From an uncultured Mediterraneibacter sp. (GTDB lineage: Bacteria; Bacillota; Clostridia; Lachnospirales; Lachnospiraceae), in assembly GCA_944381935.1 (NCBI GenBank), contig CALWMN010000010.1, forward strand, positions 43,759 to 107,758: DNA of 64,000 nt, read 5' to 3'. The notes beneath the pieces were generated by a model. That model did not search any database. It was not told where the DNA came from and worked only from the letters and a program-made list of their open reading frames with translations. Both the position numbers and the translations under genes were made by a program. Below are positions 22,535-22,716 of this stretch, piece by piece. Positions within the stretch are counted from its first letter, which is position 1. Each line of letters starts with the position of its first letter.

Positions 22535-22716
22535 ATTCACAGCCGTATCAGGCTTGGCAGCAGGAGCGTCGTGCCCGCACGTAAGCATCTGTTTCTAAGC
22601 CTGATATGTCACTGTGGAACGTCACACCACCCACATAAGCAGTCTTAGCTCCGCAAGGAGCGGGACTGGGGCCTCATAGAGGCGACGAGTGCGCATGTTG
22701 GGTGGAGGCTGTGATA
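22535..22716. other. Multi-helix structured element between atpG and atpD
   Basis: Nested inverted repeats fold the whole interval. An outer 7-bp helix (CACAGCC 22538-22544 with GGCTGTG 22707-22713) encloses three domains. The first is a perfect 10-bp stem (TATCAGGCTT 22546-22555 with AAGCCTGATA 22597-22606). The second is a small TGTG/CACA hairpin at 22613-22626. The third is a bulged 10-bp stem (22627-22636 with 22695-22705) that itself carries two hairpins. One inner hairpin has a GCAA loop when read on the plus strand, a GNRA tetraloop; on the minus strand it reads UUGC. It could be a cis-acting RNA in the atp transcript, an antisense RNA, or a miniature repeat inserted in the operon. Confidence 0.75.

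Follow-up and report, generated by a model that had tools for sequence, protein, structure and literature searches.

The locus raises the question of what separates atpG from atpD in the F-ATPase operon of an uncultured Mediterraneibacter sp., and how a nearly universal operon came to be interrupted there. In the window (the whole stretch of 64,000 nucleotides that was analysed), both genes lie on the minus strand. The upstream operon gene atpG, encoding the gamma subunit (22732-23619), has a stop codon that ends at 22732, and the downstream gene atpD, encoding the beta subunit (21116-22513), begins with an ATG at 22513-22511. From these coordinates the spacing is 218 nt, and the gap of about 218 bp described in an earlier note on this DNA is real. 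The best explanation for this odd interruption, with a probability of roughly 0.88, is that the gap holds an old copy of a non-autonomous chromosomal MITE of Lachnospiraceae, moved in trans, likely by a transposase of the IS66 family.

A folded and repeated element

Alignment of copies and analysis of ends and duplications placed the whole mobile element at 22529-22721 (193 bp, with copies of 185-198 bp). Its borders in the window were set by eye and then re-checked; the earlier extent of 22535-22716 had the right location, the actual borders being slightly wider. The element is described on the plus strand, which gives the better fold and is antisense to the atp genes. The segment 22525-22730 reached -94 kcal/mol on this strand (shuffles -66.1, z -6.0) and -80.6 kcal/mol on the minus (mRNA) strand (z -4.0), and none of 200 shuffles was as low in either case, in agreement with the strong folding claimed for the gap. 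The proposed plus-strand helices were also recovered. They are an outer 7-bp helix (CACAGCC/GGCTGTG), a perfect 10-bp stem (22546-22555/22597-22606), a small hairpin and a bulged stem carrying two more hairpins, of which GCTCC-GCAA-GGAGC (22648-22661) has a GNRA loop. Fold and comparison of copies distinguish a left hairpin with the conserved apex CGTCRTGCYYGCAYGTAAG (22546-22606, plus strand) and a right domain with the conserved core (22634-22697, plus strand), which comprises CATAAGCAGTCTTAGC (22634-22649), GCGACGAGTGCGCATG (22682-22697) and the hairpins 22648-22661 and 22671-22683.

The element is repeated in other genomes. A nucleotide search of 61 genomes (its own, 36 of the same genus and 24 from other families of the order) gave matches at E<0.002 in 12 of them, all 12 in the genus; the matched places number 30, ten of them in the genome G006. 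These many scattered copies answer the search for further copies proposed in the earlier note. In the own genome a single copy was found, both with the nucleotide search and with the covariance model R1, which represents the right half of the element and was built from 25 copies. R1 had matches in 29 of 58 Mediterraneibacter genomes at E≤0.01 and, at E≤1e-4, in 12 of 299 genomes that represent different genera within the family, its own included; the number of R1 matches per genome is inflated by opposite-strand shadows. Moreover, a pattern scan of a public genome collection returned 60 stretches with 61 core matches, mainly from Mediterraneibacter and other Lachnospiraceae records, many of them from chicken, and 17 of the 60 from the genome S27M_St_57. 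In plasmid and phage records no element match went beyond 24 bases at E 0.7, and no viral contig carried the core pattern, a Clostridiales-1-like apex or the end GTTACTTTTCACACCCACGCCA.

All 46 copies examined for context lie outside mechanically called ORFs of 100 aa or more. Their neighbours occur in both orientations (left, 17 on the same strand and 22 on the opposite one; right, 24 and 18), which fits a tolerated mobile repeat and argues against a fixed role as leader or trailer. One further copy (L227, 3283-3475), in the single-contig genome G018, is placed shortly after atpC, past the end of the atp operon, and is flanked by a 9-base direct repeat, TCCGTAAAA, probably by coincidence. In S27M_St_57, the similarity of five copies (L092, L106, L121, L124 and L135) extends past the ends, over about 100 bp on the left and 60 bp on the right, and the repeated unit in that genome may be longer or nested.

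Ends, target duplications and the atp junction

Both ends were recognisable by script in 46 of the 61 core matches, and the other 15 had no recognisable end pair. The terminal inverted repeats commonly read GTTACWGTTCACACC. In the window, the left one is GTTACTATTCACAGCC (22529-22544, plus strand) and the right one (22707-22721, minus strand), which reads GGCTGTGATAGAAAC on the plus strand, is worn in the same way as in G006 and G063. Among the 46 copies with both ends, the flanking duplications matched at 8/8 positions in 8 copies, at 7/8 in 7, at 6/8 in 6 and at fewer in 25. In the 45 copies with full flanks, the match per base was 0.575 when 8 bp were compared, and any other length between 4 and 11 gave 0.25-0.37. 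Duplications of at least 6/8 were found in 21 of these 45 copies, against 0.8 expected and a maximum of 6 in 10,000 shuffles, and exact duplications in 8 of the 45 at 8 bp and in none at any other length from 4 to 11. Three copies from other genera (L251, L262 and L263) also have exact duplications, read by eye. The duplication of the window copy is imperfect (6/8): CTCCTATT (22521-22528) contains the Shine-Dalgarno of atpD on the minus strand, and CTCCTAGA (22722-22729) holds a duplicate Shine-Dalgarno directly after the atpG stop. This imperfect duplication, the worn right end and the 15 core matches without an end pair weigh against the MITE account. A shorter copy in G016 (L055, 654-735 on G016:C7), of 82 bp and without most of the interior, is flanked by the exact 8-bp duplication AACAGTTA; it is a deletion derivative, either mobilised or trimmed after insertion.

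The atpG-atpD junction was read in 30 of the 56 same-genus genomes with an atpG match. The element is present in three of the 30 (G000, G063 and G006) and absent from 27. In four genomes (G079, G071, G065 and G007) the site is compact and uninterrupted, with 19 nt, and the atpG stop passes directly into the Shine-Dalgarno, TAGGAGGAAC; it is this Shine-Dalgarno that the insertion split and duplicated. In five genomes of other species (G078, G077, G014, G062 and G029; loci L163, L168, L174, L175 and L178) the junction carries a different palindrome, GGGGTCAGACCCC followed by GGGGTCWGACCCC.

Scattered copies and target duplications had been set beforehand as favouring a mobile repeat over an atp regulator, and both were found. 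Together with the terminal inverted repeats and the uninterrupted junctions of relatives, they uphold the reading as a miniature mobile repeat, which had been one of four in the earlier note, next to an RNase processing site, an antisense RNA and control of the beta subunit. A dedicated atp regulator setting the level of that subunit finds no support in these data, as only three of the 30 same-genus junctions are filled and the other copies stand beside varied genes in all orientations. A dedicated regulator that is ancestral and not mobile would account for the intergenic site and the strong fold. It is extremely improbable in view of the 8-bp duplications, and the scattered copies and uninterrupted sites refute it as far as sequence can.

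The history of the insertion at the atp site is less simple. An odd flank, TAGATTCTAGGAG, is common to the three filled junctions, and their worn end is the same. This speaks against the insertions being independent, so that repeated loss or exchange is left. The copy is present in G000 and G063, is missing in near relatives and occurs again in the more distant G006, a patchy pattern that simple descent does not explain and that counts against the MITE account. In codons 1-60 of atpD, carriers do not separate from non-carriers (third positions, 92% for G006-G063 and 95% for G006-G016), and in the part of atpG adjoining the element G000 and G063 are slightly closer to each other (78% vs 47-70%). 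Exchange between species and old inheritance with losses both stay as explanations.

The element could also be a cis-acting part of the atp operon, that is, a processing site, an attenuator or a translational bridge that sets the beta-subunit level. It directly precedes the ribosome-binding site of atpD, it is kept there in three species at 92-94% identity, and the predicted fold of the mRNA pairs 22522-22526, in the Shine-Dalgarno region, with the five bases 22726-22730 after the atpG stop. However, it is missing from the junction in 27 of the 30 genomes read, the same family adjoins many other genes, no promoter or terminator was found by consensus, and the mRNA fold over the longer stretch 22470-22770 is unexceptional (z -0.9). 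A cis-acting role is therefore quite improbable, and an atp-specific role finds no support in these comparisons.

According to the MITE explanation, a transposase supplied in trans would act on the terminal inverted repeats and duplicate 8 bp of the target, which here would have been the Shine-Dalgarno of atpD at the end of atpG. Since the ribosome-binding site is part of the duplication, one was left for atpD and the insertion was tolerated. The two genes are moved about 200 nt further apart, and a full Shine-Dalgarno remains before atpD. The five-pair helix of the predicted mRNA fold is weak; it closes the element, so that the atpG stop and the atpD start would stay near each other, and a module closed in this way on the atp mRNA may leave atpD translation little changed. 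Such duplication of the targeted ribosome-binding site shows how a polycistronic message can take up a mobile element and remain unbroken.

A candidate transposase of the IS66 family

The element has the same end and the same length of duplication (8 bp) as an IS66-family insertion sequence. Among the 30 IS66 loci listed for the genus, the 15-base end GTTACTGTTCACACC is common to three. L195 (in G014) is intact, with 2358 bp and the exact 8-bp duplication GCCGGAAT; L207 (in G061) is also intact and of 2358 bp, with flanks that match at 3/8; and L194 (in G081) has a broken reading frame. That L195 alone of the three has a matching duplication counts against the IS66 account. A fourth insertion sequence, L196 (in G017), ends in a related sequence and is flanked by an exact duplication. 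By Pfam, the 558-aa protein of L195 belongs to IS66 (1.6e-25); with NCBIfam it scores 162 bits, below the 180-bit cut-off. Likeness to the IS66 family, ISBst12 group, lies in the 15-base end and the 8-bp duplication, as in L195, and the difference is that the element has no transposase gene. Its interior is a conserved folded module, which was not matched in the insertion sequences L194, L195, L196 and L207.

The L195-type protein occurs in six of the 58 genomes searched, in two of them as a remnant or at 32% identity; within these 58 it was not found in the own genome or in any of the six that have at least ten R1 matches. Any IS66 match was present in three of the 14 genomes reached through element-carrying loci. 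The absence of an L195-type transposase from these element-rich genomes favours a different mover, namely a transposase from a family other than IS66 whose ends are similar. In addition, G071 and G079 hold a repeated element with the ends GTTACTTTTCACACCCACGCCAG, which breaks their assemblies at 26 places (L061-L086) and is likely an insertion sequence with related ends. The body of this element was sought in G071 and G079 as a resident partner and was not found, the contigs stopping within the element. Nevertheless, the 15-base end and the duplication length agree with IS66 elements, and ISDge4 (IS66 family, ISBst12 group) has a similar end (its ends being GTGACTACTCAGCA and GTAACTGCTCAGCA) and an 8-bp repeat, according to the available part of the source (PMC12898284). 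A mover from another family is thus rather unlikely, and an IS66-family transposase is, by sequence comparison, the likely mover of the element.

Conservation of the module and its possible relatives

For the analysis of covariation, 26 copies of the main subfamily were taken from 44 full-length ones, the 18 left out having worn ends or belonging to other subfamilies. In these 26 copies, 96.8% of 1791 cells pair and 20 of 69 pairs have changed on both sides, and none of 500 shuffles reaches the observed value on any of five measures. When the partner is slid by 1-3 columns, pairing falls to 30-42%. The compensatory changes that the earlier note had proposed to look for are therefore present, and the one-sided pattern that it had set against its own proposal was not seen. 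The left arms vary widely: 57 distinct arms from 63 distinct elements fall into about ten unrelated sequences by reading, or 20 by a stricter script clustering, and most unrelated arms keep long, nearly perfect pairing. On the other hand, the core CATAAGCAGTCTTAGC...ACTGGAG...GCGACGAGTGCGCATG and the hairpin apex vary little, across several genera.

Sites shared between species allow the divergence of the element to be compared with that of its neighbours. Thirteen pairs at seven sites were considered, of which three were too close to tell and one was mislabelled. At the atp site the element is 91.7-93.8% identical and the flanking third codon positions 58-65%; at four other shared sites with diverged flanks the figures are 88.3-93.8% and 65-79%, with codon labels that are mechanical, apparently wrong for L098-L118 and doubtful for L009/L010-L229. 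At two sites the conservation of the non-ORF flanks equals that of the element (L094-L130, 93% of 147 nt; L035-L099, 89% of 648 nt), and at L090-L109 it is much lower (54% of 50 nt). Since a dead insertion is expected to diverge approximately like synonymous sites, selection on the module is the plain reading, and the data suggest it with the caveats below.

The module may accordingly function as a structured RNA, or as a site of structured DNA, kept by selection and with the transposon ends as its vehicle. This reading is compatible with the MITE and adds a function for the host or the element. The both-side changes and their absence from shuffles point to it, as do the unrelated arms that still pair, the core nearly invariant in several genera and the slow divergence at the five shared sites. 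It is also consistent with the excess of G-U over A-C cells (34 vs 19, p 0.05; 36 vs 14, p 0.003), although these strand counts are not independent. However, most copies were found through the conserved core, which favours slow ones, and the conserved non-ORF flanks at two sites reduce the weight of the comparison. Moreover, the orientation to neighbours is not fixed, copies with internal deletions exist, one of them with an exact duplication (L055), and DNA-level repair of palindromes could keep the arms complementary. A functional module is a possibility that we hold tentatively. If selection on it is true, a jumping element would be the means by which a structured device, of RNA or DNA, spreads among gut Lachnospiraceae, and the many natural copies would make the function of this device testable.

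Regarding known repeats, BOX and RUP of pneumococcus, Correia elements, ERIC and Nezha are bacterial MITE-like repeats, and the available part of the source (PMC3049150) describes features that they have in common with the element: a length under 200 bp, terminal inverted repeats, target duplications, intergenic location, a highly paired structure and the supposed borrowing of an insertion sequence transposase. They differ in ends and hosts, and the element stands apart by its covarying module, its core nearly invariant over several genera and its slow divergence at shared sites. For BOX, too, a conserved fold is predicted, and here the difference is one of degree. No paper on a Lachnospiraceae or IS66 MITE, or on structured MITEs under purifying selection, was found in a literature search that mostly left out subscription journals.

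As for known RNAs, Rfam at threshold returned only SRP RNA and tRNAs in the window; the former is an ordinary large bacterial signal recognition particle RNA (13133-13394, plus strand, 190 bits). The atpG-atpD junction gave only a chance match to rydB (E 7.7) and the window copy no match to RF01699, and three element loci from other genera reached no Rfam family at threshold, in line with the earlier note, in which the element was not recognised as a named RNA class. In a permissive search, L122 and four of 19 further loci matched the Clostridiales-1 RNA (RF01699) with 23-36 bits; the full-length matches are L122, L257, L235, L228 and L244, the best of them (36.4 bits) under the curated 48-bit cut-off. 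This RNA is listed as probable, not cis-regulatory, and from Clostridiales and human gut in the available part of Weinberg et al. 2010 (PMC2864571). It resembles the element in the group of its hosts, in its outer helix and in a long first hairpin whose apex reads GCUUGC. In these sub-threshold matches the outer helix and first hairpin align and the right domain does not, the core CATAAGCAGTC...GCGCATG landing in an unaligned insert. Models of microRNA hairpins score equally high on the same palindromes, so the resemblance is a lead only.

The element might then be the mobile gene of a structured non-coding RNA (or, instead, a structured DNA site), in which IS66-type ends carry the apex and branched core under selection across Lachnospiraceae, and settled copies, the atp one included, change several times more slowly than the synonymous sites of their neighbours. 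The Clostridiales-1 RNA would perhaps be a distant branch of such a mobile RNA. This proposal is somewhat speculative, and we consider it possible rather than probable. In one copy from G139 (L260), parts like the right domain and the left hairpin lie in reversed order between the ends.
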